Shown piece by piece: positions 9,120 to 61,790 of a DNA stretch of 64,000 bases; the first letter of the stretch is position 1, and each line of letters begins with the position of its first letter. The notes beneath the pieces were generated by a model that saw only the letters and a program-made list of their open reading frames with translations, had not been told where the DNA came from and did no database searches. The stretch is taken from contig NC_087077.1 of the NCBI RefSeq assembly GCF_026151205.1, forward strand, positions 2,728,001 to 2,792,000, written 5' to 3'. The DNA is from Bolinopsis microptera (taxonomy: Eukaryota > Ctenophora > Tentaculata > Lobata > Bolinopsidae). The position numbers and the translations under genes are program-made.

Positions 9120-9230
9120 TCAAAATTATATCACAATCAGGTAAATATTAAATCTTTAAATGTAACACTAACAGATAATCCCGTCCTTTATTAGATTGAA
9201 GGCAGAAAAATCTGGATAACCGCTGCAGAG

Positions 9231-15129: not shown

Positions 15130-15636
15130 CAGCTATGAGGATACGACTAAAAAAACAAAGCTATTGAACAGCACCATCAAACGACTCAAGCCCGAATGCA
15201 TATATGTTCACACAGGGATAAATGACCTTCTCAAAAAGAAATCTGGTCTCGTGAGTATCGTTGAGGAGTTCTCCGAGCACCCATGATGAACACAACCAAA
15301 GCCCAAATATGCTTCTCAGGACTGATTCCATCGAGCAACGATAAAGCCCTCAATGAGAGAATCAGCATCGTCAACAAAGATGTTGAAGACTATGTGAGCT
15401 GGCTCCACAAACACAAGCCGGTTGCAAAAGATAGGATCTTTACCTTCCAAAATGACAGCATCGGTGACCAAAACTTTTACACAAGTAACGAAGGGTTCAA
15501 GCTGAGAGAACGAGGTCAAAAAATGCTGTGGGTGCGCCTCCGTGAAGGAATGAGGAAAACAATGCGCTTACCTCGAGTAAGCTACCAACCAAAGGACAGA
15601 TCCAGACGCAGCACGAACAGGTTTAGAGATGAATAG
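15130..15636 (+). pseudogene. LINE ORF1, SGNH-hydrolase-like, frameshifted
   Basis: The frame before 15282 reads ECIYVHTGINDLL, like the block III region (GxND) of SGNH/GDSL esterases found in CR1-type ORF1 proteins. It stops at two TGA codons at 15283-15290. The protein continues in another frame from ATG 15283 for 117 codons (ICFSGLIPSS, then FKLRERGQKMLWVRLREGM, which fits the C-terminal SGNH block). A frameshift near 15280 thus breaks ORF1. Its stop at 15634-15636 overlaps the ORF2 start by 8 bases. Confidence 0.55.
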
Positions 15637-18600: not shown

Positions 18601-19303
18601 ATCACCCGACGTGAGCAGCGTCAACTTTCTTGTACATCAGACATTCCAAGAGCAGAAGAATCTAAACCTCTCTTGGTATAAGACCTGGAACTCGATCGCT
18701 CAGTCTGAATCCAAAGCGGCCAAATTCGCTCGATCCGACCAACACAGAGCAGAAGGAACGACCTCAACTGCACATGGAAATTTGGTTGATCACTTTGTAA
18801 AAGATTGGAGAACAGATTTAGCATCCCAAAAGAAAATGCAATTTTACTGCACTATCAAACAGGTATTCGGAGAGGAGCAGTATCTCAATCTAAAGAATAG
18901 TCAATGTCGCATGCACATAGCAAAAATCCGCTCCAGTAGCCATGACCTTCTTATTGAGAGAGGGAGATACACAAAAGAAACTGGAACGTGGACGAGAGCC
19001 TGCAGATTCTGCTGCAACAAGGATAACGTTCAAGGCTTAGAATATCTCCCCTTTTTCGAAGGAACAATCATTGAAAATGAAGAACACTGCCTCACTGAAT
19101 GTCCAATGTACCACTCAGCGAGACTCTCACTGTCGGAAAACCTTAAGAGTCTTTTGCTGCTCAAGGAATACGGAGCTATCATGAATTCTGCCCATGTGCA
19201 AGAACTGGGCAAATTCCTTTGCAACTGTCACCGCATCAGGAACCCGAAAAAGACGCCAATACTGCCTGTCACCCCATCAGGACTACCAACTCAACAGACA
19301 TAA
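15629..19303 (+). CDS. LINE ORF2: endonuclease-reverse transcriptase
   Basis: An intact 1224-residue non-LTR polyprotein. The N-terminal APE-type endonuclease (residues about 10-285) shows MSWNINHQ, CLQETKG, ILGDMNART, STVDYICVS and YSDHRPIS. The reverse transcriptase (about 560-830) shows HKKGDKQNPDNYRAIT, LGFRAGAQCSD, FVDYRKAFDTV, GTEQGHPMSPELF and the catalytic box LLWADDLIL, with W replacing the usual first residue of FADD. A C-terminal Cys/His cluster (CRFCC, HCLTEC) near 1130-1170 is a likely zinc knuckle. It makes cDNA by target-primed reverse transcription. The start overlaps ORF1's stop by 8 bases (ATGAATAG), suggesting coupled reinitiation. The frame's integrity implies recent activity. 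Confidence 0.9.
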   Translation: MNSPPKMRHSLKLMSWNINHQRDKFEGVKFEIDEVQKLIAGHDIVCLQETKGQVSMREFKCFNANRSDSNSGGVCTAIRKHLAAGVVRVHFSKCDDILIVKLKAKYFNLDKDLNLINVYDSPAHGSYKKRMRSKMEQYTTTCEHLEECLSNIPDSEDAAILGDMNARTGTLNDFLIPCESRDLQVELDPPQHSISPTEVASRNNQDRILNSNGKPFIELLQTTGMIILNGRTIGDIFGSPTCIQRNGVSTVDYICVSHSLLHRARFFKVGDLTPYSDHRPISTTLTTNIRNIVMAGDISNEMELKFASIPKPFKWTKDACSGLGTTEKFKSAQNTAQFKEKVDSLLQTDISSPDDIRSFNEIVIATFTNLASQVTTQKSGKPSTNKNKWFDWSCRHAKRLVCRDERAKNNTHIDPMLVESNRARFYLRKKEYRAQTRARKGAYLYKLNEKINLSNNINWAALKDLSSACKDPDTFDIYDLIAFHKFFNDLYNQKCKDPSHGGLQTNTSTNEAGEQGTEYHLEPPVELEKLNTEFTIQELEKVTNKLQNNKSVSCDLISNEMLKSSKLGLQKVLLKLFNGCLTQGIYPWNCSITTPLHKKGDKQNPDNYRAITVGSCLGKLFASLLLDRLIEFRKVVCPDFPHQLGFRAGAQCSDHILTLTTIIEKYTKKLKKKIFACFVDYRKAFDTVCREALMYKLSRLGIGGSFFSCLQNMYSNSVTRIKLSKKLSDTIDVTIGTEQGHPMSPELFKVYIYDLSIRLAALEDLSIPELNGFPVSHLLWADDLILLALDAKSLQKQLDCLYEFASKWELSINIDKTKIMVFNSSSRLLKCSYGFKLENLDISSAKSYCYLGIQFSLNGSFKGAMNELRKKALRAFFSIRRMVDTRALTTKTMLKLIDSLVKPVATYACQIWLPCTKMAKEMACADGSRQNLARAATKDALETTHLKMLKWVLGLHKKANNNFCYGDTGRLPWALSVLPQCLRYFDRLSQTSPDVSSVNFLVHQTFQEQKNLNLSWYKTWNSIAQSESKAAKFARSDQHRAEGTTSTAHGNLVDHFVKDWRTDLASQKKMQFYCTIKQVFGEEQYLNLKNSQCRMHIAKIRSSSHDLLIERGRYTKETGTWTRACRFCCNKDNVQGLEYLPFFEGTIIENEEHCLTECPMYHSARLSLSENLKSLLLLKEYGAIMNSAHVQELGKFLCNCHRIRNPKKTPILPVTPSGLPTQQT

Positions 19304-26514: not shown

Positions 26515-29046
26515 CTTACTACTACTACTACTACTACTACTACTATGTCGGAGCTAAGTCCGATCTACGCCAGAAAACCCCCTCCATATATCCCTGTCCC
26601 GCATCAGGGTTCGCAGTTCCTCTTTAGAGTTTGTCCCAACTTCCTTCAGTAACATAGACAAGTAGCTTTGTCTTGGTCGGCCTTGCTGTGCTCTACCGTG
26701 CGTAGGTTCCCATAAGACTAAATCACTGGCAAGTAGCTCAGGATGTCGGATGCAGTGTCCCGCCATTTTTAATCTCCTGCTTCGTAACTTGTTTGACAGC
26801 CTTGGGAGGCTACCATACAAAGTTATATTGCTGACCTTGTCCTTCCATGAGATACCCAGCACCATACGCAACATCTTTGTGTATGTCCCGTCCAAACTTT
26901 TCTCTTGAGCCTTTGTCAGTGTCCAGGTTTCTGATCCGTAGAGCAGTACTGATTCACAAGCCGCTATGAACAATCTAATCTTTAGGCTCTTTGAGAGTTT
27001 GGATTTCCAGATATCCTTCAGTCTATGTAGGGCACCCCACGCTTTTCCCTTTCTAACCCTTATCTCCCTATCTGTGCTCTCAATCCAGGAGCCTAAGTAG
27101 ATGAAATCATCTACATTTTCTATGGCTTCTCCGGATCGACTTTGTAGGTCGCTAGATCGATCCTCCATATTCAGTGTCATGACCTTGGTCTTGCCTTCGT
27201 TTATGTGTAGTCCCACGCTTGCTGCCGCCGATTCTACTCTGAGCAGGAACTCGTTAGCCTTGTCCATGTCCTCAGATATAAGTGCTATATCATCTGCAAA
27301 GTCCACATCGGTGATGATCTTGGGCCCCACTCTTCTGCTTTTTCTACGTTCGAGGGTGAGTCCAAGTCGCTCCGCATCATCGCCTATGGCTTGCCTCATA
27401 CAGTAGTCGATGACTATTGCAAAGAGGTAAGGTGCTAAGGTATCATCCTGTAACACACCTGCAAGTATCTCGAACAATTCAGTTTCTCCGTCTGGAGTTA
27501 GGACTTTGGCCATTGTCTTCTCGTACATGAGCCGTATAAGCTGCACGATTTTGACTGGAATGCCGTAAGCTTCTAGAATCTTTAGCATTTTCCCACGATG
27601 TACACTGTCGAAAGCCTTCTTAAAGTCTATAAATGTCAGAACAGCTGGCAGTTTCCGACTCTTGACACCCTCTATAAGACGTCTCAGTACCAATATCTGT
27701 TGAGTTGTTGACCTTCCTGGTCTGAATCCATTCTGGTTTCTACGCAGAATTGTCTCGATTTCTGGCTTCAACCGGTTTAGAACCATCTTGTTTAGAGACT
27801 TGGCAACTAGGGATGACAAGCTTATTCCCCGATAGTTCATTGGTTCGCTAAGGTCGCCCTTCTTTGGAATTGGTATGATGTTGGCAGTTGACCATTGGTC
27901 TGGTTTCTCACCTTTCAATAGAGCATTGTTACAGAAGTCTAAGACAATTTGATCAAGGTCGCATCGTTTTAAGACTTCTGGGGCTATGTTGTCGTCACCC
28001 CATGCTTTCCCTTCCTTTATGCTGGACTTTGCTTTCCTGTACTCATCCAACGTAAACGGTTCTGTTCCGATATTCAGAGGTGGGTGGACTGGATCAATAT
28101 CCTCTTCCGCGTTCTCTACCGTCGGTGGTGAGCCGAGAAGAGTAGCAAAATAGTCCTTCCATTTCTGAACCCTTTCCGTTGGTGAGTTTCCCTTGATTTT
28201 GCCAGTATATGATGGAGCTTTACCTGTGATCTTGTTGATCATGGTCCAGCTTTTAGCATGTCTGCCCTGCCAACTTGCTTCCTCCAGTTCCCGGACCTGC
28301 CCCTCCAGCAGGTGCTCTTTGGCTGCTTGATAAGCATCGCCTAGCTTCTGTTTGCCCTCTTGAACAGCTATTCGGTTGTCTTCTGTAGCATCTGAGTGGT
28401 ATTTTATGCTACATTCCCTCAGCTTCAGCCTGGCAATCTCAACACTTGGAGTCGCTGAGATTTTACATCTTTTCTTTTTCTCCTTTTCAGGTAGTAAAAG
28501 TCGAGAAGTTGTCCTATTCGCATCAATAAAGCATTGGTACCTTTCTGTTGCCGTCTGATCATCCTTTTCAAGTATGGAAAAGCGGTTTTTAACTTCCACT
28601 GTGTACCTCTCTTGTAGAGCGATATCAGTTTTAAGTTTAGACCAGTCCAGAACCGGAGCCCTCTTCTCCGTCTTGCTTATCCGTAGACTAAGCTTTACCC
28701 TTGCTACGACTACTCTGTGATCCGAGCCAATACTGTGGAAACTACCATATGCTTCGGAGTTCTTGACGGAGTTCCGCCATTTCTTCCGGCAAATGATGAA
28801 GTCGATTTGAGATTTACTTTGACTCATATCTGAGAGATATGTCCAGAGTTTACCTCTTCGCTTCTGAAATCTGGTGTTTGTGATTTCTAGCTGTCGCTCC
28901 AACAGCATATCCTCTAGCAGTCTACCATTTCGGTTTGCTGGACCCTTGTGGAAGGATGTCCAGTTTCCTGATGATGAGACATGCGCATTGAGGTCTCCTA
29001 CAACGAATAGTAAGTTGTGGGCTGGTATCTGGTCGACTCTCTTGTA
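26515..29046 (-). mobile_element. 5'-truncated RTE-like LINE with (TAG)n tail and 14-bp TSD
   Basis: Flanked by an exact 14-bp duplication TTGCCCATAACTCT (26501-26514, 29047-29060). The empty site is present in T1 around 12759-12772 (reverse strand). The element runs on the minus strand from 29046 and ends in about nine TAG/TAC trinucleotides at 26515-26546, the microsatellite tail typical of RTE-type LINEs. The 5' end is truncated inside the endonuclease domain. Confidence 0.88.
26554..28908 (-). CDS. RTE-like LINE endonuclease-reverse transcriptase (N-terminally truncated)
   Basis: 784 codons from the first ATG. The frame stays open upstream to 29046, including VVGDLNAHV, the GDxN endonuclease motif. 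RT landmarks are IPIPKKGDLSEPMNYRGISL, NGFRPGRSTTQQIL, TFIDFKKAFDSVHRG, GVLQDDTLAPYLFAIV and the catalytic DVDFADDIALIS. The C-terminal block WKSKLSKSLKIRLF ... YGSETWTL ... HCIRHPE ... GRPRQSYL is typical of RTE-group elements in invertebrates. Lacking the first part of its endonuclease, this copy cannot retrotranspose itself. The long intact frame suggests a young insertion. Confidence 0.85.
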   Translation of the reverse strand: MLLERQLEITNTRFQKRRGKLWTYLSDMSQSKSQIDFIICRKKWRNSVKNSEAYGSFHSIGSDHRVVVARVKLSLRISKTEKRAPVLDWSKLKTDIALQERYTVEVKNRFSILEKDDQTATERYQCFIDANRTTSRLLLPEKEKKKRCKISATPSVEIARLKLRECSIKYHSDATEDNRIAVQEGKQKLGDAYQAAKEHLLEGQVRELEEASWQGRHAKSWTMINKITGKAPSYTGKIKGNSPTERVQKWKDYFATLLGSPPTVENAEEDIDPVHPPLNIGTEPFTLDEYRKAKSSIKEGKAWGDDNIAPEVLKRCDLDQIVLDFCNNALLKGEKPDQWSTANIIPIPKKGDLSEPMNYRGISLSSLVAKSLNKMVLNRLKPEIETILRRNQNGFRPGRSTTQQILVLRRLIEGVKSRKLPAVLTFIDFKKAFDSVHRGKMLKILEAYGIPVKIVQLIRLMYEKTMAKVLTPDGETELFEILAGVLQDDTLAPYLFAIVIDYCMRQAIGDDAERLGLTLERRKSRRVGPKIITDVDFADDIALISEDMDKANEFLLRVESAAASVGLHINEGKTKVMTLNMEDRSSDLQSRSGEAIENVDDFIYLGSWIESTDREIRVRKGKAWGALHRLKDIWKSKLSKSLKIRLFIAACESVLLYGSETWTLTKAQEKSLDGTYTKMLRMVLGISWKDKVSNITLYGSLPRLSNKLRSRRLKMAGHCIRHPELLASDLVLWEPTHGRAQQGRPRQSYLSMLLKEVGTNSKEELRTLMRDRDIWRGFSGVDRT

Positions 29047-29188
29047 TTGCCCATAACTCTTTTGTATTGCGTCATGTGGGGTGATTCGGAATCAGCGTCC
29101 AAAAATACACCGATTTAGATCAATTTCACACCCAAAGGGCCTTTTCACAAGAATTTTCTTAAAATTTGGGCGAGCGATTTAGTAGGAG

Positions 29189-34440: not shown

Positions 34441-37065
34441 CGATAAAAGGTTACTTGATAAAAGTTACTTGATTGTTATATTAAGTGACTTCAAGTTATT
34501 TGTTTAAAGTGACTTGATTGTGTTATTAACTAACTTGGTAACTTGGTAAGGTTTATCCTCGTAGCAGGAAGGGTCATCAGATGTCTGACCACCGTGATGG
34601 CGTGTAGTCTACCAAGGAATTCGACCAGCTGCACGTATAACCGGAAACCGGAGGGTTATCCGGTATCAAAGCAAGAAACTTAGACAAACTGACTTTGAAG
34701 CTGGCAAACGTTTTCTCGGCTTTCACTTCACTCGGCACCTTATTCCACAGTTTGGATCCTTTTACTGCGAACGAGCTATCATACAGTGTCTGGTTTCTCA
34801 TCGAACTCGACTTTGATAGAGAAGGAACAACTGCTTTAGTGCCATATCTGGATGTTTCCACAAACTCGATGCTACAGCTATTTGGAACAACGTTATGGTA
34901 CGTTTTCCACATCACCAAGATGATGTATCTCTCCCTTCTCCGTTGCAGGGACATTAACTTCAAATGAGCTAGCCTCTCCCAGTAGTTTAAGCTGTATAGA
35001 CCACCAATGCGGCTTGTAAAGGTACGCTGGACCCCCTCCAAAAGCTGAATCTCTGTCGTCTTGACTGGGTCCCACAGCGGACAACAGTACTCCAATAAGC
35101 TTCTGACTAGAGACTTGTAGAGGGTCATCATAACCACTTTATCCCGTGTCTTAAACACACTGAACACCCAAGACAGTTTACTTCTAGCTTTGGTGACCAT
35201 ATCCCCGACGTGTTTAGACCAGCTCAGATCGCTTGACACTTTTACACCAAGGTCTCTAACGTTTTCTACGGGATAAAGAGTGACGTCACTAGAAACATTG
35301 TAGAGGAGACTTTCTACGTAAAAGGGAAGTTCACTTGATAAGTTCCTCTTATTGTGTAGGTGGTTTAGGAGTTCGAACTTCTGCTCGTGTAACTTCATGT
35401 TGTTACATAGGGACCAATCTATAATGCTGTAAAGATCAGTCTGAAGAAGTTGGCAGTCTTCAAGGCAGCTAATTTGCTTGGAAACCCTAGTATCGTCTGC
35501 AAAGAAGCTCACTCTAGAATGCTTAACCACGTCCTCTAGGTCGTTGATGAACAACAGGAAGAACAGTGGACCTAAAACACTGCCCTGAGGCACCCCGCTT
35601 AACACCTTAGCGCTGTCTGAATGCACACCGTTCACGACAACAACTTGGTCACGACCAGTTAAGAAGGATTGAATCCATCTTAAGAGCTTCTCCTGGAATC
35701 CATATCTTTTCAGCTTAAGAAGAAGTAGATCCAAGTCGACTTTGTCAAAAGCTTTCGCAAAGTCGAGGTAGATTGAATCGGTGTCATTTCCTTTCGTGAA
35801 ACCTTCGTAAATGTCGTCAAAGTGCTCCAACATTTGGGTGAGACAGCTTCTATTTGACCTGAATCCGTGCTGTTTGTCCGATAACAGATCATTAGAATCA
35901 AGGTACTGGGTCATGTGCTTTCTGACGACCCTTTCATACACCTTCACTACGTGAGAAGTCAGCGTCACAGGTCTATAGTTTACAGCTTCACATCTGCTAC
36001 CTTTCTTGAAGAGAGGAGTGACATATCCGGTCTTGTAGTAGCTTGGGACGATGCCAGACGACATAGATTCTGTCCAGATGAGATAGATAGGGACCGCTAA
36101 GCTAGAGGTACATCTTTTCAGCAGGATGGAGGGGATGCCATCGGGTCCCGGTGCAGAGTCAAGCTTTAGTTCCGATATAGCGTCCTTTACGTGGTCGAGA
36201 GTGAGGACAGGTTCTTTATCTCGACAAGTAATGGGCGGCACCGCAAATTCAGGCATGGATTTGTAGGGGCAGTTAGGGTCACTATAGACTGAGCAAAACT
36301 GAGTCTGGAGGATGTTCGCAAGATCCTTCTTCTCTGTGACAAGCTTATTTTCACTATTAAGAAGAGTTGTGATGTTTTGCTTCACTTTGGAGAACGATTT
36401 CGCGTAGGAATAAAAGTATTTCGGATTAGCTTTTATCTTATTCACCGCTCTCCTTTCGCCCTCATCAAAATGGTGTACTATAGCTTCCTTAATCTCAAAG
36501 CTGATTAATCCGATTTCGTCTTCAAGCTGTTTCATTCGAGCATGGTCGCCGCTGCACTCTGCCGCTGAAAGACGATTCTTGAGTCTGGACTTCTTCCTTC
36601 TCAGCGAGTTGTAGACATTCGGTTTTCCTTTAGGAGGTCGTTTCCTTGGGACATTTTCAAGACAAACGTTTAGCACTTTACGTGTAAAATTTATCGGAAA
36701 TTCTTCAAAGGTAGTGGAACCTCGAACCTGTTTCCAGTCCACACTACTGAGAGCTTCGTTAAGTTCCTCGAAATCAGTATGGTTAAAATCTAGAGCCCGA
36801 AAGTTCATTTCGTCCAGATACGTGAGCTTAGCTTCCTCAAGTAATGCAGGGTTAAAAGAGAGGAGAGCATTAACCATGTTAAGTGACTTTGAGAAATACA
36901 AGTTACTCGATAAAAGTAACTTGATTGTAGTATATTTTAGTGATTTTGAGTTATTTGTTAAAAGTGACTTGATTGTAGTATCAAGTGATTTTGAAGAATG
37001 CTAGTTACTTGTTAAAAGTGACTTTGAAGATTACAAGTAATTTCATAAACGTGACTTGATTTTCA
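34440..37065. repeat. AAGTGACTTGAT tandem repeat split by a LINE
   Basis: Degenerate tandem units built on AAAAGTGACTTGATTGTAGTA and AAGTGATTTTGAAGTTA occupy 34440-34550 and resume at about 36880-37065. The LINE between them evidently inserted into a pre-existing satellite-like array. Exact unit boundaries are not resolved. Confidence 0.65.
34577..36901 (-). CDS. Jockey/CR1-like LINE reverse transcriptase (endonuclease missing)
   Basis: 774 codons; the first ten or so come from flanking repeat DNA. RT landmarks are DSAPGPDGIPSILLKRC, TPLFKKGSRCEAVNYRPVTL, KQHGFRSNRSCLTQM, YLDFAKAFDKVD, GVPQGSVLGPLFFLLFINDL and the catalytic VSFFADDTRV. The C-terminal block EYCCPLWDPVKT ... RRRERYIILVMWK ends in PDNPPVSG, shared with the fragment at 14157-14726. 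The APE endonuclease is absent, so this is a 5'-truncated copy. The open frame implies recent insertion. Confidence 0.88.
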   Translation of the reverse strand: MYFSKSLNMVNALLSFNPALLEEAKLTYLDEMNFRALDFNHTDFEELNEALSSVDWKQVRGSTTFEEFPINFTRKVLNVCLENVPRKRPPKGKPNVYNSLRRKKSRLKNRLSAAECSGDHARMKQLEDEIGLISFEIKEAIVHHFDEGERRAVNKIKANPKYFYSYAKSFSKVKQNITTLLNSENKLVTEKKDLANILQTQFCSVYSDPNCPYKSMPEFAVPPITCRDKEPVLTLDHVKDAISELKLDSAPGPDGIPSILLKRCTSSLAVPIYLIWTESMSSGIVPSYYKTGYVTPLFKKGSRCEAVNYRPVTLTSHVVKVYERVVRKHMTQYLDSNDLLSDKQHGFRSNRSCLTQMLEHFDDIYEGFTKGNDTDSIYLDFAKAFDKVDLDLLLLKLKRYGFQEKLLRWIQSFLTGRDQVVVVNGVHSDSAKVLSGVPQGSVLGPLFFLLFINDLEDVVKHSRVSFFADDTRVSKQISCLEDCQLLQTDLYSIIDWSLCNNMKLHEQKFELLNHLHNKRNLSSELPFYVESLLYNVSSDVTLYPVENVRDLGVKVSSDLSWSKHVGDMVTKARSKLSWVFSVFKTRDKVVMMTLYKSLVRSLLEYCCPLWDPVKTTEIQLLEGVQRTFTSRIGGLYSLNYWERLAHLKLMSLQRRRERYIILVMWKTYHNVVPNSCSIEFVETSRYGTKAVVPSLSKSSSMRNQTLYDSSFAVKGSKLWNKVPSEVKAEKTFASFKVSLSKFLALIPDNPPVSGYTCSWSNSLVDYTPSRWSDI

Positions 37066-37822: not shown

Positions 37823-39329
37823 TCACTCCGGCTTGCTGGTGCTTCTCGAGCCATAGTTTGAGCAAACAACACAAGGATTGTTCCTAACGAAAGGGACCAT
37901 CTGGACCGCGTTATCATTGCTTACAGTTATACCAGCCACGATCCCGGACTCATTGTTTGGGATCGACCTTACTTGTTTAGCAAGCCGTTTCATCATTTTA
38001 GGAGTGAGGACATATATAAGAGGATCTGTTAGAGTGTTTAAGTAAAGGAGAACCTGCGCAGACCATTTGAGCGGACATGTTCCAGTCCTTTTGACAATAT
38101 CTATGATAATGAACGCTGGAACCCACGATAGAGAGAAGATAACAATCATTATAACTGCTCTGATAAGGAGACTTTTGTTCTTCTTAGTTCCGACTCGCTC
38201 GCTCCTGCACATTCTCCACGACATAGCAGAGTAAGCCACAATGTTGACCGCCAGTGTTCCTAGGCCACAGAACGCGGTGGGGAAATGATAGAAGATACTG
38301 TGTCGGAGCCACTCAGCAGGTTCACAAACACTACCAGCAGAGTAGTTGACAACAGAGCCGACCTTAGCTATCTCCTGGTAAATCACGATAACGATTGTAA
38401 CAGATAAGGGAAACAGCCAGCATAACAGGGTGAGTAGATGTTGTCTGCGGTGATGAGCGTGGGTTTTGTAGCTGAAAAGTGCAAATTGGTTTAAAGTAAG
38501 GTCAAAGAATAATGGCATTGAGCAGCTTATCTTTAAGTCTTATCTTTAAGAGTTCTGTAAGGGTAAGGAAACCAAGGAAACCAGGGAAACCAAGGAAACC
38601 AAGGAGACCAAGGAAACCAAAGAAACCAATGAAACCAAGGAAAGAGGATCGAGAGAAACAGAGCTGGATCAAGGGAATAAAAGGCCGGGAGCAAAGGGAT
38701 TAAAGGAGTCAGTGGGATTAAGTGGATCAAGATGAAATGGGTCAAAGGGAGAAAACAGGGAAATCTCAAATTATGACAGTCAGTTTAATTATCCAAATTA
38801 GAAATAAGCACCCTGCACCAACCTAAAAGGATAGAAAATAGCAGCTAGTCGGTCGGTTGTGATAGGGAGTACTGACAAGAAGTTGGCTGCCGGCAGAATG
38901 GATGCCAGATATACTCCAGTTTCGCACAATTGTTTAATAGAAACTGTACCAATAAAACCTGAAAATGTATTAAGTAGCGTGGCAGAAATAAAAAATGATA
39001 GAAATAATAATGTGTTACGATAAAAAATTTATATATTTACTCAGAATTGTGTAGACATCAGATTAAAGAGGACCTGAAACATGTTAGTCTCACTTACTGC
39101 GACCCCTGAAGATCACCCCAAACAGTGCCATTACTGCGTCAGATACCGCAAGATTCATGTACGCTTGATGGTACGATTTCTGATACTTTCTTTTCCAAGT
39201 AAAGTAAATCAGTACACAAATATTGATCAAGAAAGCTACGGTCATAATGCTAATGAAGGTTAGAGCAAACTTGCATTTTTTGCAATCCAGGTCAATCTTC
39301 AGTCCGAGTGGATTATGGTATGTTTTCAT
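37823..39329 (-). CDS. Rhodopsin-type GPCR, three exons
   Basis: Exons 39098-39329 (donor GTAAGT), 38823-38958 (acceptor ACATTTTCAG, donor GTTGGT) and 37823-38471 (acceptor CACTTTTCAG) join in phase into 338 residues. TM1 is in exon 1 (FALTFISIMTVAFLIN), as is TM2 with the canonical LAVSD. TM3 ends TDRLAAIFYPF (DRY position) across the exon 2-3 junction. TM6 has SLSWVP (CWxP position) and TM7 has DPLIYVL (NPxxY position). A second-loop cysteine (SVCEPAEW) could pair with the one before TM3 (KQLCETG). It is a plasma-membrane class A receptor, ligand unknown, and not a close relative of the two intronless receptors at 1-5.3 kb. Confidence 0.85.
38565..38640 (+). repeat. Short AAACCAAGG tandem repeat in a GPCR intron
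   Basis: About nine degenerate 9-base units of AAACCARGG lie between exons 2 and 3 of the GPCR. They account for open frames of low-complexity K/P/R on one strand and W/F/P on the other. Confidence 0.8.
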
Positions 39330-44285: not shown

Positions 44286-44398
44286 TCACTGCCCACCGGA
44301 CCCACTGCTACCAGGATAAGAGTAAGCGTAGGCGAAAGCAGCACCAGCCATTGTCGATGTGACGGCGTACTTCGCAAATCCATTGCTGGTTGGGGCAT
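44286..44398 (-). CDS. ALDH3: ALDH last exon encoding a small-residue hydrophobic tail
   Basis: Acceptor CTCCTTACAG, phase 1, joined to the donor GTATGT at 44658. It encodes [20 protein letters not shown], a further AYAY-containing stretch, and a Gly/Ser-rich end, with stop at 44286-44288. Without this splice, translation ends 3 codons past the junction. The alanine-rich stretch may act as a weak membrane association segment, in the place where vertebrate ALDH3A2 has its membrane anchor. Confidence 0.7.
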
Positions 44399-47300
44399 CT
44401 GTAAGGAGTACGCGTTATATATTGAGGGTGTGATTTTAGTATTAATAAGACATGCTTTTTGAGTTTGAAGCACTTCTCATAGTTACTTTGTCAACATTGC
44501 TTCACAAACTCTAAGTATGCAAAATAACCTTACTACACGAACAAACCATGCAGATCAAAATACACAAAATACTCATGCAGTCTAACAACTAAATATTAAA
44601 GCAGGAAAGTAAGACAAAGTTCGTTTCAACTCGACCTCTCTCACGTACAATTACATACTAGGCTTGTAATACGCCAGCGAGTAGATCAGGTTCTGCTTCC
44701 ACTCCGCGTCGTACGGGGGATATCTGAGGTTGTTGACGGACTCCATGCCTATTGGCTTGTGTAGGACGGATTTGTGGTGACTGAACTGGTCAAATGTGGA
44801 CTTGCCGTGATACTTTCCTGGGGTTATAGTGATTGAGATACCGTTACACCAGAGTGGTACACCAGAGTGGTACACCAGAGTGGTACACCAGAGTGGTACA
44901 CCAGAGTGGTACACCAGAGTGGTACACCAGAGCGGTACACCAGAGCGGTACACCAGAGTGGTACACCGGAGTGGTACACCAGAGTGGTACACCAGAGTGG
45001 TACACCGGGGTGGTACACCAGAGTGGTACACCAGAGTGGTACAGCAGAGTGGTACACCAGAGTGGTACACCAGAGTGGTACACCAGAGTGGTACACCAGA
45101 GTGGTACACCAGAGTGGTACACCAGAGTGGTACACCAGAGTGGTACACCAGAGTGGTACACCAGAGTGGTACACCAGAGTGGTACACCAGAGTGGTACAC
45201 CAGAGTGGTACACCAGAGTGGTACACCAGAGTGGTACACCAGAGTGGTACACCAGAGTGGTACACCAGAGTGGTACACCAGAGTGGTACACCAGAGTGGT
45301 ACACCAGAGTGGTACACCAGAGTGGTACACCAGAGTGGTACACCAGAGTGGTACACCAGAGTGGTACACCAGAGTGGTACACCAGAGTGGTACACCAGAG
45401 TGGTACACCAGAGTGGTACACCAGAGTGGTACACCAGAGTGGTACACCAGAGTGGTACACCAGAGTGGTACACCAGAGTGGTACACCAGAGTGGTACACC
45501 AGAGTGGTACACCAGAGTGGTACACCAGAGTGGTACACCAGAGTGGTACACCAGAGTGGTACACCAGAGTGGTACACCAGAGTGGTACAGCAGAGTGGTA
45601 CACCAGAGTGGTACACCAGAGTGGTACAGCAGAGTGGTACACCAGAGTGGTACACCAGAGTGGTACACCAGAGTGGTTAATAGAAATATCAACTAATGTC
45701 CATATTGCAGGTGAACACTAAACAGTTAGATTACAGATATCTTCAGTTAGATGCATAGGATATATTATTAAGTAAAGTAGCTTATATTATTAAGTAAAGT
45801 AGCTTATATTATTAAAGTAGCTTATATTATTAAGTAAAGTAGCTTATATTATTAAGTAAATAATAAGAACAGGAAATTACCGATGCCACTGTGACCAACA
45901 CCTCCGAACGGTAAGGTCGGTATCATCATGTGCATCAGACAGTCATTAACATCCAGCGTACCTGCTGACACCTTCTTCTTTACCTGAACATTTAAACGGG
46001 TTAATGCCAGTCTCTGGCTCCATAACATGAAGACCTTGTTTTAATTTGTATTGAAAAGCTCTAATATGTCACTTTGTAGCTGATTAAGAGTCACGCAATA
46101 CGGATAACGGATGTGGAACTAAAACTTTAGTCCTAGATATAGAATCGTTCATATCTCACTCAGTTTTTAAAAAATCCTCGATTTTACAATTTCAGCACCG
46201 ATCCTAACACAAAAACACAAAAACATGAATATCTCATACCTCATCGACAAGCTTAGCGTTGCTAGAAAACAGGTAACACACAAGGGGCTTCTCTCGGGTC
46301 CTGAAGAACTTAAAAACGCTCTGAATGTCCTCGTATTCCATGATGGGCAGGATGGGCCCGAATATCTCGTCCTGCATGACTTTAGAGTCCAGAGGAGTGT
46401 TGGTGAGGATAGTCGGGGAAATGTAGTTAGTTTCATCGTTAGTTTTACCTCCTGATAAGTTATATGGTTGCTCAATATTAAGCAATATTGATAAGAGATA
46501 TCTGGTAACTAGGTGATGTTATCAGAAATTTATATGAAGATATTTTTGGTCACTGTCACCAACATGTTAACCAACATTGGCTAAAACATGGTGCCATTTA
46601 GGTTTTGTTACTTGGTAATACACAATGAAGTTTCAGTTCTTATCAAAGATCAGTCAGTATAATTATATCTATCACTGAAACTGAAACACAATTACCCACC
46701 AATAACGACAGTTCCATCATTCATAAGAGACTTTAACCTGTTGTAGTGACCTTGGTTGATTATCCTGAAATTAGGTATTATTATTTAAGTCAGTCACGTA
46801 CTTTTAACTTTAAACGTCCCTCAAAAATGTGGAATCCCTCAAAATATACGAACAAACGTTAACGGTAAAGCTCAATTAATTAAAATTTTGCCCTTCAATT
46901 TAACTCCAATTGGGCGGCCAGTGGGGACTCTGAAAACAGTGTGTGTTGACCTGTTGGAGAGTTTACTCTCCTGAAAATAATAACACCCCAATAATGACAC
47001 GTGACTCTACCACGTGACCCTACGTTACCACGTGACCCTAAGTTACCACGTGACTATACCACGTGACCCTAAGTTACCACGTGCTCCTACCTTGCGAACC
47101 CGTCGCTCTGTTCCGGATCCTCTCCGTACATGTCAGTAATGTGCTGTTTCATCCTCTCAATCAGAGTTGGCATCTGCTTCTTGTGACAATATATGTAGTC
47201 CGGAGCTATGCAAGTCTGCCCAGCGTTCACACACTGTTCAAAGTACAAAATTGTCAATCAAACGGCGTTTCTTAAAACTCTTATTTTTAAAATATAAGAA

Positions 47301-49866
47301 AAGCGGTCTAAGGAATTAATTCCAGAATTGAATGACAAAATACCAAACGAATATTACCAAACCTTGCCCCAAATGATTCGTTTGGCGGCCGTGTCAATGT
47401 TAGTATTCTCATCCACAATAACAGGGCACTTTCCCCCCAGTTCCAGGGTGACGGGGGTCAGGTTTACTGCGGCAGCTTTAGCTACTATCTTACCCACTGA
47501 TACGCTCCCTGGAGAGGAGTTACTTGAGGGGTGTATTCGAAGGGGTGTATTTTATTAAAGGGGTATATCGGCCCCCCCCCCCCCCCCCGTATATCTGATT
47601 ACGCATGAATATTGTCACTGATTGAGGTATTTTAAAGATTGAGAACGGTTCATTTGAAAGACAATTTGAGACAATATGACCCCCCGTGAATGAGGAAGAA
47701 TTAAAGATAAATTACCTGTAAAGAAGATGTGATCCCACCTAAGTTTTAATAAAGCCGTAGCAGTATCAACCCCTCCCTCCAAAGTTCTGAAAATACAGTT
47801 TTAATTAATTGAAGCTAATTAGTAATTAGGCTTACTAAGGTTATTCATTGAAAATCTTGGATAAGTGGACTAATCTTCAATCTGGTGTTAACTACATACC
47901 CTACATAGTATCTTCCTAGTGATCTAAGTCTAAATAAGTGTGGATTATCCAGTATACCTGTAACACAGAGGATCCAGAAATAGGTCGAAGTATTTCTTCA
48001 TGACAGCACTAGCAGTGGGTGCTACCTCGCTCAGCTTCACCACAGCACAGCACCCAGCACATATTGCTCCTGGAGGGGCTACTGTCAGCATTTTATGAGC
48101 GTCAGGGATTTTTGATTCTTGTGAAACACAAGGAAATGTTCTTAAAAGGGAATAGAACTTTTGCCAGAATATTCTGATGATTTTGGGGCCGTGATTCGAA
48201 CTGCTCTCGGGGTATAAATCAATTTTTAAGAACTTGTGGAGATTTTAATCTTGTACGATTATTTACCAAAAGCCTAAGTGATGACAAGAGAGGAATGTTA
48301 CAAGTTTCCAACACATGATTCAAAATAAAATATTTGAATTACAGTACGCCCAAAAAAGGAGGATTAAGATAACCGATAATTGAATCAAGGCGATCTTTCA
48401 TGTTCGTCAAATCCCCATTATAACATTTACCGCCGATCATCACGAATATCAAAAGCCACTTGGAAGTTGATTTTCTGTACTTCCATAATCCATACACCAT
48501 ACACGTATCATTCCAACCGTTTTAATTCCAACTTGGTTGTTCCCCGGGCCGATCGTTAATACATGAAACAAATTTAACATAATCGCATTTTACGGCTCAC
48601 CGACGAGTGGACTCAGGGCAAGTTGAACAGGGTAATTCCAGGCCCCGAATATAACGATAACCCCCTTGGGTTCCGGACACAGATAAGCCTGGTCTATCTT
48701 GTTCAGAAGGTCCTACAGTTGGGGGTATTGGGTATTATACAATGTAATAGTTGGTTAGTACCTTGGTAAACCCAGCTGATAGTCTTGCTTTTTAGTTACA
48801 GAAATAAACCTCTACCGCTCGAACAACACCAACGAAAGTTTCGAAACCTCTTACCAGTGTGCTAATCAGTAAATGAATCTGTCTGCTGGGTTTACCATGG
48901 TAAAAATACAGAAATGTAATCAATTATCCTAATTACCTATGAGAGGCACCAGCGTACATTGCATAGGATAATTCCAGGTTCCTATAACTAGGATCATCCC
49001 CTTTGGCTCTGGGTGTTGGTACGCGTAATCTAACTTGTTCACTAAATCCTATGGATCAGCGAGTCAACATTCGATTCAAATCATTAAATACCTGTTAGAT
49101 AATTATATTACCAAACACAAAAATCAAAACTTGATCACGAAAATCACACGATAAGGCTCCCCTCGGCTCCCTAAAATATTACCCACAGACACAGTACTTA
49201 GTGGGTCACTAATAGAAGTTGTGACTACTGTGACAGCAGGTACAACTACTATCAGTGACCCGCTATCACAACACAGAAATACTCACGGTCTTAACATACT
49301 GATCTGCCATCCAACCCTTGAGGTGCTTCATAGCGTACCCCAGTTCACTCTCAGTAAACTTTAGATCCGTACCGTTGGTTTCCATCGGGTGCTTCCTCAT
49401 GTCTTTATGTACTGCTTCTAAATACTCCTGAGAAGATACGTGTTGGTGATGGTGGGGAGGTGGTTTGTTTTGGCACGTGACAGTGATTCTGAAGTTGGTG
49501 TGAACTGAAGGAGGACGAGCTAATCACTGGCACGTTTCAGCGATAATGTCAGCGAAAATCTATCAAAAGATAATGGTCACAATCCCAAATTTCAATTCTT
49601 TTTCCAATTAACAATTTAAGACTATTAAGAGTTCTAATAAACATAGTGGGCGAAGCGAAATCATATTGGTGTTGCATATAAATCAAGTTTAATAAGATGT
49701 TAATTAAACAGCTAGATTAATTGAATTGAACCTTTTCCATAGCTTTAATCATAGCAGCACACTTTTTAAGCTGTCCGATCCTATACTCGTAAGGCAAGGT
49801 GACCCCTGAGTCGAATGAAGTCTGAAGCTCATCCTGGATTTTCTGATATTCTTCTTCTAGAGACAT
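44286..49866 (-). CDS. ALDH3: Class 3 aldehyde dehydrogenase, 12 exons with an alternative third exon
   Basis: Exons in transcript order: 49732-49866, 49287-49427, then 48937-49048 or 48601-48712, then 47958-48081, 47716-47786, 47363-47508, 47091-47233, 46700-46764, 46240-46451, 45881-45983, 44659-44817 and 44286-44398. All phases agree and give 507 residues (human class 3 enzymes are about 450-485). An in-frame TAA directly precedes the ATG. Motifs: WNYP (oxyanion-hole Asn) in exon 3; FFTGSVSVGK (NAD binding) across exons 5-6; TLELGGK (general-base Glu) in exon 6; NAGQTCIAP (catalytic Cys) in exon 7; EIFGPILPI in exon 9; [17 protein letters not shown] across exons 10-11. It should oxidise fatty or aromatic aldehydes with NAD(P). 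The exon 6 donor is GTTTGG and the last donor is GTATGT. Reading through that last donor ends the protein at KPSM. Confidence 0.93.
44846..45677. repeat. 13-bp minisatellite (about 64 copies) in the last ALDH intron but one
   Basis: Near-perfect tandem copies of GGTACACCAGAGT. Variants (CGGT, CCGG, CAGC) cluster toward both ends and the middle is homogeneous. On the transcribed strand the array ends about 27 bases before the acceptor of the exon at 44659-44817, leaving very little room for a branch point and pyrimidine tract. A 13-base unit without stops in any frame creates long spurious open frames on both strands. Confidence 0.95.
45768..45862. repeat. 22-bp tandem repeat in an ALDH intron
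   Basis: About four to five copies of AAAGTAGCTTATATTATTAAGT, one with a small deletion, ending near the donor of the exon at 45881-45983. Confidence 0.85.
46996..47086. repeat. CACGTG-containing tandem repeat in an ALDH intron
   Basis: Six CACGTG hexamers within about 90 bases, in units like TACCACGTGACCCTAAGT, ending 5 bases from the exon at 47091. CACGTG is the E-box core bound by bHLH-zipper factors. Regulatory function is only a possibility; the array may be an ordinary minisatellite. Confidence 0.75.
48601..48712 (-). CDS. ALDH3: ALDH alternative exon 3a
   Basis: 112 nt, acceptor CCCAACTGTAG, donor GTGAGC, entering in phase 0 and leaving in phase 1. It encodes 37 residues starting [17 protein letters not shown], with the active-site block [17 protein letters not shown]. 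It matches exon 3b at 22 of 37 residues and retains WNYP. It can splice to the same partners as 3b. Confidence 0.9.
48759..48902 (-). promoter_or_regulatory. Inverted repeat in the intron between the alternative ALDH exons
   Basis: TACCTTGGTAAACCCAGC at 48759-48776 is complementary to GCTGGGTTTACCATGGTA at 48885-48902 at 17 of 18 positions, with a 108-base loop. It lies wholly inside the 224-base intron separating exons 3b and 3a. In pre-mRNA it would fold between the 3b donor and the 3a acceptor. A role in exon choice is inference. Confidence 0.6.
48937..49048 (-). CDS. ALDH3: ALDH alternative exon 3b
   Basis: 112 nt, acceptor GCTGATCCATAG, donor GTAATT, phases identical to exon 3a. It encodes 37 residues starting [17 protein letters not shown] with [25 protein letters not shown] is the version closer to vertebrate class 3 ALDH, so 3b is probably the ancestral form. 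Confidence 0.9.
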
Positions 49867-50877: not shown

Positions 50878-53800
50878 CTACTTCACGGGTCTCCTTTTAA
50901 AGTGCGACTTTAACACATCGTCCATTCCTTGACTAAATTTTGCTGAAATACAACAATAATGCAGAGCAAGTTATAGTATCGTCCATTTTACCAGGGGATA
51001 AAACGTGTAACTGTTCATTAATGCGACTCATAACGTGGGAACATAGTTGAAATATTTGGCCAGTTGGTAGATCACCGACCGGCTATAAGCCGGCTTATAG
51101 CCGGCTAAAATTTTTATAGCCGGCTATAAGCCGGCTTATAGCCGGTTAGTAGCCGCTTACATTTGTTGTTGAGCGACGGCTATTAGCCGGTTATAAGCCT
51201 GCTATTAGCCGTTTTGGTATTAAAAGTGGTTATAAGCCGGCTATAAGCCGGTTATAAGATATTAACTCAACTACATCGTACTGAACGATAGTCAGGAGCC
51301 GGCTATGATCTACCAATTTCCCAAATATCTGATACTAGAATGGATATTGTAACAAAACTACAAGGTATCTAAATAATCTAACCTATATTGTATTGTAACA
51401 AAACTACAAGGTATCTAAGTAATCTAACCTATATTGTATTGTAACAAAACTACAAGGTATCTAAGTAATCTATCCTATATTGTATTGTAACAAAACTACA
51501 AGGTATCTAAAGAATCTAACCTATATTGTATTGTAACAAAACTACAAGGTATCTAAATAATCTAACCTATATTGTATTGCAACAAAACTACAAGGTATCT
51601 AAATAATCTAACCTATATTGTATTGTAACAAAACTACAAGGTATCTAAAGAATCTAACCTATATTGTATTGTAACAAAACTACAAGGTATCTAAAGAATC
51701 TAACCTATATTGTATTGTAACAAAACTACAAGGTATCTAAGTAATCTAACCTATATTGTATTGTAACAAAACTACAAGGTATCTAAATAATCTAACCTAT
51801 ATTGTATTGCAACAAAACTACAAGGTATCTAAATAATCTAACCTATATTGTATTGTAACAAAACTACAAGGTATGTAAAGAATCTAACCTATATTGTATT
51901 GTAACAAAACTACAAGGTATCTAAAGAATCTAACCTATATTGTATTGCAACAAAACTACAAGGTATCTAAAGAATCTAACCTATATTGTATTGTAACAAA
52001 ACTACAAGGTATCTAAATAATCTAACCTATATTGTATTGTAACAAAACTACAAGGTATCTAAATAATCTAACCTATATTGTATTGTAACAAAACTACAAG
52101 GTATCTAAATAATCTAACCTATATTGTATTGTAACAAAACTACAAGGTATCTAAATAATCTAACCTATATTGTATTGTAACAAAACTACAAGGTATGTAA
52201 AGAATCTAACCTATATTGTATTGTAACAAAACTACAAGGTATCTAAAGAATCTAACCTATATTGTATTGTAACAAAACTACAAGGTATCTAAATAATCTA
52301 ACTTATATTGTATTGTAACAAAACTACAAGGTATCTAAAGAATCTAACCTATATTGTATTGTAACAAAACTACAAGATATCTAAATAATCTAACCTATAT
52401 TGTATTCGATGAGTCCCAACTCTGTTAGACAGGATTCTTGGAGCAAGCACACCAGTGTCAGGTTATTGCAAATATACTTCGTTAGTATCACCTGATAAAT
52501 ATCATCTTATATTTAAACAGAATTAAAATTAATCGTAGGGAAACAAACCGGTTGATCGAGTATGGCATGTTTCCAATTTCCATACGATCACCCACGATTA
52601 TATCCATGTATGTACCTGGTTCCACTACAGTAATTAAATGAGTAATTCAATCCTTGCTCAGGCACCCCGCACAACTAACAGTAAGGTTACTTGCAACCAG
52701 AACGGTACTTACAGTGCCGTTGTCGAGATGGACCGAAGAGAAAGACTTGCTGTCGTAAAATGAGAAAGACTCGGGCGTGGTGTAGATGTTTGAAACGTCT
52801 GCCACCAAGTCCAACATATCACAACACATCTCGTACTTCTGCAGGATGAAAATATAACGTTATATTATTATTATTTAAAGTACATTGGTTCTTAAATTTT
52901 TATGAGATCCCAGTTTATATATTTAAAAAAAAACCTTCTGCTCTGAGGAGGAGAGAAAGTTTTTGTGGAGAGCCGCTCAGACATGGGCACCGTATTGTGT
53001 AAATTATTTAGGTATATTTTATGCAATATCTTTGTCGCATACGAGCGGGGTAGTAAATATTGTGTTTCGTTTCGTTTCGTTTCGTTTTCGTTATTAATAA
53101 TGTTATGTTTTTTTGATAATGATAGGTGGGGACGAAGTGAGAGTCTCCACTCAGTGTAGTAGACTCTCACTTCCCCAACTATCATTTTCAATTGTGATCG
53201 ACCCACTCATTAGAGCGGAAAAGATTACTAAAATGTTCTGTTTTGTCTGGAAGCGTCCTTTTGTGACAGGTTTTTGGGGAATTTGAAGAAAAATGTAATT
53301 ATAATTTTGTACAAAGCAAAACGAAACGTATGAATCCAAATCTAAAATGCAATTATACAGATTTGATTAGGAGATTGGTGGTTCTACGGAAAACGCAAAA
53401 TGAATTCATTAAACAGACATACATCGGAATTCGGTATGTTACTATCTGACCATTAAATAACAGTAAGTTATAACTTACATTAGTTGGAACTGACTCAGTA
53501 TCGGTAGCTATGTAACACTTAGTAGCAACGTCAAACAGTAACACTCTGTCCATCCCACAAGGCTCCTTGAGCGCGTTAAGCAGCGATTCAAACGTCGATA
53601 ATAACTGGAATAACGACTAGTAATGATGTTATGAGTAAGAAAAAGATTACCGCTCAAGGATAGATTAGACTTGGGCGTTGTTTTTAACTATCCCCTGTTT
53701 AGAATTTGTATTTAATAAGTTTTATAGCCGAGGGAAAAGTTGTCATGGGCCAAGGCTCCAAGCATTTGGTGGGTTAAGGCGGGTCAAAAGCAATTTTATC

Positions 53801-60122: not shown

Positions 60123-60670
60123 ATGGCAGAAGTTCGTGAACATAACCGAAAGAGAGAAAAACTGTTCAAAATTCTCCCTTTTTGGACTCTTGTCTCTGTT
60201 ATTTTTATCCTCTTCTTGAAACCAAACTTTGGGTCTGTTATTTCAAGTGAATATTCAAAAGGCAATGTTACCAATGATTCATCTCACTCCACCTTCTCAC
60301 CAGTGGATCGAATAGCAAATAAACCGGACTATGGCAATGTTAAACTATAAAGCTGTTAGTCCACCCAACAAATGGAAATGCAGGAAACCAAGACATACTT
60401 ACTATTTTCCTAAAATCAAGACCATATTCACAGGCATCCCCAAATCCGGGTCTTCAAACTGGAAAGAGTTCCTAATGAGAGCGGAAGGTACCTTAAACAT
60501 GAGTTTAGGACCAAGTCAAGTCAATACCATTCACAAGTTGTATTCCGATGAGTTCCGGTTAGACGCTCATTCAAATGCTGCTGAAGTTAAGAAGGCAGTT
60601 ACAAGAGGTGAAAATATTTTCAGTTTTGCAGTGGTTCGCAACCCCTGGACCAGGTTAGTCTCCGGGTACA
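60123..60670 (+). pseudogene. CHST8-14-type carbohydrate sulfotransferase 5' exon, copy 1, frameshifted
   Basis: Starts MAEVREHNRKREKLFKILPF, with a type II membrane anchor (FWTLVSVIFILFL, residues about 20-33). The catalytic region shows the 5'-phosphosulphate site FTGIPKSGSSNWKEFL and the 3'-phosphate site FAVVRNPWTRLVSGY, as in Golgi HNK-1/chondroitin/dermatan sulfotransferases that use PAPS. Compared with copy 2, two bases are missing near 60277, so the anchor and catalytic parts are in different frames. A possible donor (A|GTTTGA) follows at 60671. No downstream exon with the rest of the domain was found before copy 2. Confidence 0.75.
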
Positions 60671-61790
60671 GTTTGATTTGGTTGGTCTTAATACTCTATA
60701 GCTTCTATTAAGTCATTCCTAAAATCGGAAATTTGATTTTCTTTGCGAGTTCTTTACTTAGAACTGGGATGAAGCTGCTAGTTTTTTATTTCTTTGGCAG
60801 TCAGTTTTTATCGAATCAAAAAATATACATTTATACATCACAACCGAAGATACAACCGATTAAGCTGTAGCTCGCACTGAACACAACGTAATAACAACAA
60901 AAACCATCAAAATGCTATTCCAAAAATCTTTGCACGTGCACGTTCAACAACCCTCGGCCTCGTCACTTACTATGCAACTTCCTATTTCTCATCAAATTTG
61001 CACGTGGGCGGTCGTACATACAGAGTACAGAAAAAATAATTCTTTGAATTATAATATAGACTAGAAAGCCCGTGGTCACACGGAGGAAGCTAATTAGGGT
61101 TGCCATTATCGCGATGGGTACAATTTCTTTTATCGCGATAATCGATAACTTTTTCAAAATTATCGCGATAATATCGGTTATCGGCGATAAATTTGGCAAG
61201 ATAATAAAAGTAATATTTGTCTGCACTCTGCATACTTGAATTATGCTCCTATGCTATGTAACCTTGTTACATCAGTCATCATCATTATATAGTTACAATA
61301 TCATTAATTTAATTTAATTTTCAAAAATGCAGAAACATTGAATCATGACAAATCCTTAAAGGATGACGTAAATGAGTTTTTAACTTTTGGCAAAGATTTT
61401 GTGGTGCATGTTACGTTAACTTAGGCCTCGAATACTCTAATATGATTAAAGAACGGAATTTCTAGCTTCCACATAAATGGAGATATCAGTTATCACGCAC
61501 GTCGCACACTAAATTTCTCGCTGCACACAGAACGTTCCTAGTTTGGAATGTAGTTCCCTCTCAGTACAGTGTTTATGTGATGTTTGCCTTCTTTTTTCCG
61601 TTCGTTAGAAGGCTCGATATTTCATTTTTGAAACGTTTGGATCGTTAAATTATTATTGAACATAATTGTACGAGAAAGTTTTACATCGGTATTTGACATA
61701 GAACAGACTTTAAAACCATAAAACATCCATTAAAACGCTCTAAATTCGCGAGTAAATTGCTCCCGGTAAGAAGTCATTGTATTTTCCGGC
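60671..61790. other. Intergenic, repeat copy and a TATCGCGATA cluster
   Basis: 60797-61085 is a copy of the repeat at 58880-59190. 61096-61200 holds several TTATCGCGATAA-type dyads bounded by GGTTGCCATTATCGCG and its approximate complement ending TTTGGCAA, a likely MITE relic. No gene. Confidence 0.55.

Follow-up and report, generated by a model that had tools for sequence, protein, structure and literature searches.

Tandem exons at the WNYP segment predict two forms of a ctenophore class 3 aldehyde dehydrogenase

Can one ctenophore gene provide two aldehyde dehydrogenases (ALDHs) that differ only in an active-site segment? The question is raised by a locus with two similar exons in tandem, 3A and 3B (hereafter A and B), which both encode the WNYP motif. 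The locus lies in the window, the whole stretch of 64 kb that was analysed (C6:2728001-2792000; GC content 38.35%). The genome searched comprises 264,652,675 bases in 232 contigs. Tandem duplication of the WNYP exon in a class 3 ALDH gene has very probably given rise to a mutually exclusive pair and to two full-length ALDH3 dehydrogenases. Exon 2 would be joined to A or to B and then to exon 4, and the isoforms would be identical except for 37 residues.

The spliced model of the ALDH3 gene occupies positions 49866-44286 of the minus strand, and each intron is bordered by GT and AG (Table 1). With exon A or with exon B, it encodes 503 amino acids. A search of the own genome matched query residues 1-46 at exon 1. 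The sequence-only reading had assigned the gene to class 3 ALDH, and this assignment stands. Both spliced forms match PF00171 with E values of 6e-76 to 8e-76. For the B form, the closest PDB entries are 4qgk (E 3.5e-123) and then 3sza (E 8.3e-119), which we take to be human ALDH3A2 and ALDH3A1, respectively. The B isoform shares 42% identical residues with ALDH3A2 and 41% with ALDH3A1; WNYP and the catalytic cysteine are common to these enzymes. The alignment columns of the catalytic cysteine C247, the oxyanion asparagine N118 and the general base E213 of the model are invariant with ALDH3A1, ALDH3A2 and a paralogue on contig C3. The motifs ELGGK and EIFGP are intact. On this sequence evidence, the gene product is a member of the class 3 ALDH family and a predicted dehydrogenase.

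The C-terminus of the enzyme may also be alternative, with a short tail or the tail of exon 12. Retention of intron 11 leads to a short SM-stop tail (44659-44651) and 469 codons including the stop. Variants of ALDH3A2 alter the C-terminus. Intron 10-11 holds a tandem array (44844-45680) of a GTACCACTCTG-like unit with long open frames on both strands, located near the acceptor of exon 11. Between 44000 and 50200, no Rfam element reached the gathering threshold.

Table 1. Exons of the ALDH3 gene and intronic features around exons A and B (positions in the window).
Feature	Positions	Strand	Remarks
Exon 1	49732..49866	-	Start Met, MSLEEEYQ...; donor gttcaa, weak
Exon 2	49287..49427	-	Exit phase 0
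Hairpin, intron 2-A	49199..49265	-	Arms of 32 nt each, loop of 3 nt; found once in genome
Exon 3A	48937..49048	-	112 nt; entry phase 0, exit phase 1; acceptor TAG
Hairpin, intron A-B	48759..48902	-	24-nt arms 48902-48879 and 48782-48759; 13 bp perfect core
TACTAAC	48754..48760	-	Exon B branch-point candidate, branch A 48755; first two bases overlap outermost stem pairs
Exon 3B	48601..48712	-	112 nt; entry phase 0, exit phase 1; acceptor TAG
Exon 4	47958..48069	-	Corrected start; A+B and no-exon products meet first stops here
Exon 5	47716..47786	-	
Exon 6	47363..47508	-	ELGGK, general-base segment
Exon 7	47091..47233	-	Catalytic Cys, GQTCIAPDY
Exon 8	46700..46764	-	
Exon 9	46240..46451	-	EIFGP
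Exon 10	45881..45983	-	PFGGVGHSG
Exon 11	44651..44817	-	End 44659 when joined to exon 12; else read-through, stop at 44651
Exon 12	44286..44398	-	Alternative C-terminal tail, weakly hydrophobic

The two tandem exons of equal length and equal phases were found exactly where the sequence-only reading had placed them, each with AG before and GT after it. Its count of 22 identical residues out of 37 was reproduced in the phase 0 translation; 71 of the 112 nucleotides are identical. BLASTP aligned A and B with 55.5 bits and 29 positive positions out of 37, and their BLOSUM62 score is 132, where shuffled sequences average -38 (z 12.3). An assembly or haplotype artefact was ruled out, A and B differing at 41 of 112 nucleotides. 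In a tblastn search of the 64-kb window with each segment, no further exon copies were found; besides A and B, nothing was better than E 0.26.

Inclusion of both exons, or of neither, had been predicted to shift the frame, and the stops were indeed found within exon 4. NMD is expected for such transcripts because eight exons still follow downstream of the stop. After splicing, exclusivity would be secured by the frame in this way. The splicing of A and B is very likely mutually exclusive, as far as the exons themselves indicate, and two enzymes that differ in their pockets are the probable products of this single gene.

The junction to exon 4 required a correction. Its acceptor had been placed at 48081, and the next exon begins at 48069 (cag/GAGCAA). 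The start at 48069 restores the PL(I/V)GAI / PMVGAI stretch of ALDH3. Position 48081 is 12 nt upstream and in frame, so that two CAG acceptors precede exon 4 (48081-48069). Use of the upstream one would put four extra residues inside the conserved PL(I/V)GAI stretch; at most, it would serve as an alternative acceptor in tandem with the other. TAG acceptors occur at A and B alone and CAG at the other ten acceptors, with a p value of 0.015 that is nominal, as A and B are duplicates and hence not independent. The TAG acceptors are perhaps weak, and weak acceptors would suit alternative exons.

A different reading is that only one exon is used constitutively, the second copy being dead or seldom used. 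Its inclusion would yield frameshifted and decayed RNA, and at most it would tune expression in the manner of a poison exon. The stop reached by the A+B product and the perhaps weak TAG acceptors on both exons are in line with this. The divergence of the exons argues against it. The differences between A and B are distributed over the codon positions as 15/4/22. With pS 0.75 and pN 0.26, silent sites are saturated and amino acids constrained; therefore, the pair is not a recent duplication, and neither exon has decayed. The saturation of the silent sites also means that the duplication is old. In a neutral simulation with 41 nucleotide changes, at least 22 identical residues were retained in one of 20,000 runs starting from B and in none of 20,000 starting from A. 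Neutral drift at the same divergence left 13-14 identical residues on average, not 22, and about a quarter (from A) or a third (from B) of the runs were without stops. In the genome, both exons are open and have intact splice sites. They are about equally close to outgroups: A and B share 18/37 and 18/37 residues with human ALDH3A2, 17/37 and 20/37 with the C3 paralogue, and 17/36 and 14/36 with ALDH3A1. Given these similar identities, neither exon looks abandoned. Both exons are under coding constraint by these comparisons, and a dead duplicate is very unlikely.

For the mutually exclusive pair, the exchanged residues suggest what the two forms could differ in. Residue numbers are those of rat/human ALDH3 and were assigned by ungapped alignment. 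Judged from the alignment and from what is known of the family, the 37-residue segment presumably comprises the strand that runs up to Asn114, the oxyanion residue, and the first part of the substrate-tunnel helix. Both exons had been described as carrying WNYP and differing around it, which is borne out by 15 differing residues in the alignment. Among these are, as A/B, 108 L/V, 109 V/I, 110 I/F, 112 T/A, 117 M/V, 119 C/L, 120 T/A and 122 V/S. Positions 119 (Cys/Leu), 117 (Met/Val), 112 (Thr/Ala) and 110 (Ile/Phe) correspond by alignment to tunnel and cofactor-side positions. At position 112, the Thr of A is shared with ALDH3A1 and the Ala of B with ALDH3A2. In docking to ALDH3A1, Asn114, Tyr115 and Cys243 are named as binding-site contacts (PMC9007462).

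A family profile was built from 80 bacterial ALDH3 relatives kept out of at least 589 stretches. They were selected partly on the pattern [IV][FI]G[AT]WNYP, and the frequencies at positions 109-116 are biased by this selection. P103, G105, N114, Y115, P116 and P123 are kept in A and B; they occur in 79, 80, 80, 80, 80 and 77 of the 80 relatives listed, with the bias just mentioned for positions 109-116. Each exon departs from the family in its own way. A has Cys at position 119, where 78 of the 80 relatives listed have Leu. B has Val at position 108, where again 78 of the 80 listed have Leu, and Phe at position 110, where 71 of the 80 listed have Ile, a frequency within the range biased by selection. 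The A-B differences showed no significant concentration at family-variable positions in an entropy test with the 80 bacterial relatives listed (p 0.12). The B form would thus carry the family-typical Leu119 and the A form Cys119, Met117 and Thr112, which would give the latter a changed pocket wall. The location of differing residues at tunnel-lining positions makes it plausible that the isoforms differ in function, perhaps in their preference for substrate or cofactor.

Both exons could also be used in an unregulated mixture of constant ratio and same catalysis, the sequences having drifted within structural tolerance. Conservative replacements make up many of the 15 differences, as the 29 BLASTP positives indicate. 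In a related enzyme, ALDH2, the equivalent of position 119 is presumably another residue, Met174. Docking to ALDH2 puts ligands in contact with Met174, in the tunnel region (PMC10650273). The retention of both copies in spite of saturated silent divergence argues that each is needed, and the Cys of A stands where nearly all bacterial relatives listed have Leu. We consider such a mixture unlikely.

Exclusivity may also be helped before splicing; the introns on both sides of exon A contain long hairpins. The helix test covered 11 introns of the ALDH3 gene with 100 shuffles each (30 for intron B-4); intron 10-11, largely tandem repeat, was left out. Helices beyond all shuffles were limited to introns 2-A and A-B, on either side of exon A. 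The hairpin of intron 2-A is the stronger one, with a helix score of 50 that was reached by 0 of 100 shuffles. The next strongest helix of the gene, in intron 1-2, was reached by 2 of 100 shuffles. In the A-B intron of 224 nt, a perfect stem of at least 13 bp appeared in one of 3,000 shuffles. The overall fold of this intron is unremarkable (z -1.44; 17 of 200 shuffles fold as well). Within a pre-mRNA segment of 1,337 nt, the pairing probability of the A-B stem has a mean of 0.99 in the core and is 0.63-0.93 for the outer four pairs. Both hairpins are unique. A genome search with the 2-A hairpin returned the self match alone. The motif of the A-B arms, CCWTGGTAAACCCAGC, has just two occurrences in 264 Mb, namely the arms themselves, and a DNA search found no other copies of the A-B element in the genome.

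The foot of the A-B hairpin adjoins the sequence TACTAAC, the best branch-point candidate for exon B. It is a candidate by consensus match alone, and the consensus may not be that of ctenophores. Among the introns tested, only intron A-B has TACTAAC in its last 70 nt. The last AG before the exon B acceptor is located at 48763-48762, so the AG-free zone, where the branch point is expected, begins at the end of the stem. From donor A to the candidate, the distance is 181 nt in the linear RNA and 37 nt with the hairpin formed. Steric interference is reported below a limit of about 50 nt between 5' splice site and branch point (PMC7969005, PMC5740500). Before splicing, the A-B hairpin perhaps helps exclusivity by folding out 144 nt and bringing donor A to within about 37 nt of the candidate. 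With the 2-A hairpin folded out, about 171 of 238 nt would be left, which is not below the limit of about 50 nt.

Together, the two single-copy hairpins might act as an RNA switch with exon A at its centre. The A-B hairpin would hide most of its intron and place donor A too near the branch point of B, so that the fold enforces exclusivity; the 2-A hairpin would set the frequency of A. The switch would select between two pocket chemistries, the A form gaining an extra Cys beside the tunnel. This extended reading is doubtful.

Alternatively, splicing does not depend on the hairpins. They would be chance or relic inverted repeats, and exclusivity would be achieved by frame/NMD and trans factors alone. 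This is compatible with the exclusive pair except for the steric part. Long hairpins are not rare in the region: 18 of 555 windows of 230 nt score at least 41, as high as the A-B hairpin, although seven of them belong to one tandem-repeat array and three are the two hairpins themselves. Stems with at least 13 perfect pairs form nine clusters in the 64-kb window, the A-B hairpin counted. The A-B hairpin is also MITE-like, with terminal inverted repeats and TA at both ends. On the other side stand the absence of the arm motif and of further copies from the rest of the 264 Mb by DNA search, and the position of the shuffle-beating helices, exactly on the two sides of A, with none in the nine further introns tested. 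Six introns of the C3 paralogue have helix scores of only 14-22 (scored without shuffles, with one end approximate and the long intron left out). We regard a role and no role of the hairpins as evenly balanced.

Two other origins or functions of the intronic sequences were considered. A MITE origin of the A-B hairpin is not supported, as no other copy was found by DNA or arm-pattern search; highly diverged copies could escape these searches. Docking/selector pairing among introns 2-A, A-B and B-4 was no better than in shuffles for two of the three pairs: 53 and 88 of 100 shuffles had duplex energies as good, compared with 4 of 100 for 2-A with A-B.

Mutually exclusive exons arising from tandem duplication are already known, and the ALDH case is a new instance. 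Among the titles and abstract beginnings searched in an open-licence library, none reported exon duplication or mutually exclusive exons for an ALDH. This agrees, within the same library, with the statement of the sequence-only reading that it knew of no described class 3 ALDH with such an exon pair. We know of no alternative WNYP exon in human ALDH3A2 or ALDH3A1. The Dscam exon 17 cluster is reportedly controlled by steric hindrance. For insect Dscam exon clusters, intronic RNA structure is implicated in the exclusive choice (PMC6071210). In the ALDH3 gene, the structures are local hairpins inside introns. The human OGDH gene, likewise encoding a metabolic dehydrogenase, has the mutually exclusive exons 4a and 4b (PMC7969005). 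Steric control is described there, the distance from the first exon's donor to the branch points downstream being only 25-41 nt (PMC7969005). In contrast to this account of a different enzyme, the ALDH3 branch-point candidate lies close to the acceptor, and the distance would become short only by folding out the hairpin. A donor-to-branch-point distance shortened by a hairpin is possibly a twist on the known steric control. The closest case by organism is Mhc2 of the ctenophore Mnemiopsis leidyi, for which tandem mutually exclusive exons are predicted that change loop-1 near the nucleotide site (PMC3912159). The ALDH3 pair resembles it as a predicted tandem exclusive pair in a ctenophore; Mhc2 is a muscle myosin.

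Ctenophores are argued to be the sister group of all other animals, and RNA-seq and Iso-Seq data of Bolinopsis exist (PMC10232365). The main claim can thus be checked with existing RNA data, which are presumably public, and without new animals. If it is true, a metabolic enzyme joins Mhc2, the one ctenophore gene with predicted exclusive exons that was met in the literature as covered here. If both isoforms are made, the swap of the pocket wall alone is a natural experiment in ALDH3 specificity. The gene is also a compact system in which to see if exclusivity can be imposed by an intronic hairpin that shortens the distance from donor to branch point.

Among the best-scored candidates genome-wide, the single-copy C3 paralogue is the only other class 3-type match to the WNYP segment. 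Matches of other ALDH genes also span the segment, with 27-28% identity. In the C3 paralogue, the WNYP segment is contiguous with the following ones and lacks an intron after the equivalent of exon 3; therefore, this intron was gained in the present gene or lost in the paralogue. Fragments of the C3 paralogue are located at L031 (C5:18508280-18508780), C12:5048129-5048601, C13:11832166-11832643 and C10:6184311-6184479. They consist of its exon 2 and the following intron joined to a late exon; the C10 fragment has the late part only. The fragments share 96-99% identity with the C5 copy, and the C3 gene itself 94-96%. Those on C5 and C12 have an in-frame stop. The pattern suggests that a mobile element has recently captured parts of the gene and spread them.

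A tandem array with an AT-rich unit (51360-52440), located upstream of the ALDH gene, adjoins palindromic AGCCGGCTATAAGCCGGC repeats (51078-51260). The window also contains long reverse-transcriptase frames at 15581-19303, 26554-29091 and 34577-37000; two have endonuclease domains, which suggests the non-LTR type. Rhodopsin-type receptor matches are located in frames 4176-5276 and 37823-38539, a BTB match at 9195-10772 and a sulfotransferase match at 60316-60711. Genome-wide, 32 iGluR-domain matches were observed, ten of them in uninterrupted frames of 904-989 codons. Some are clustered (examples are C12:11782391-11809362 and C6:9547809-9555444). One iGluR was compared with solved structures and was closest to the ML032222a iGluR, presumably from Mnemiopsis leidyi.
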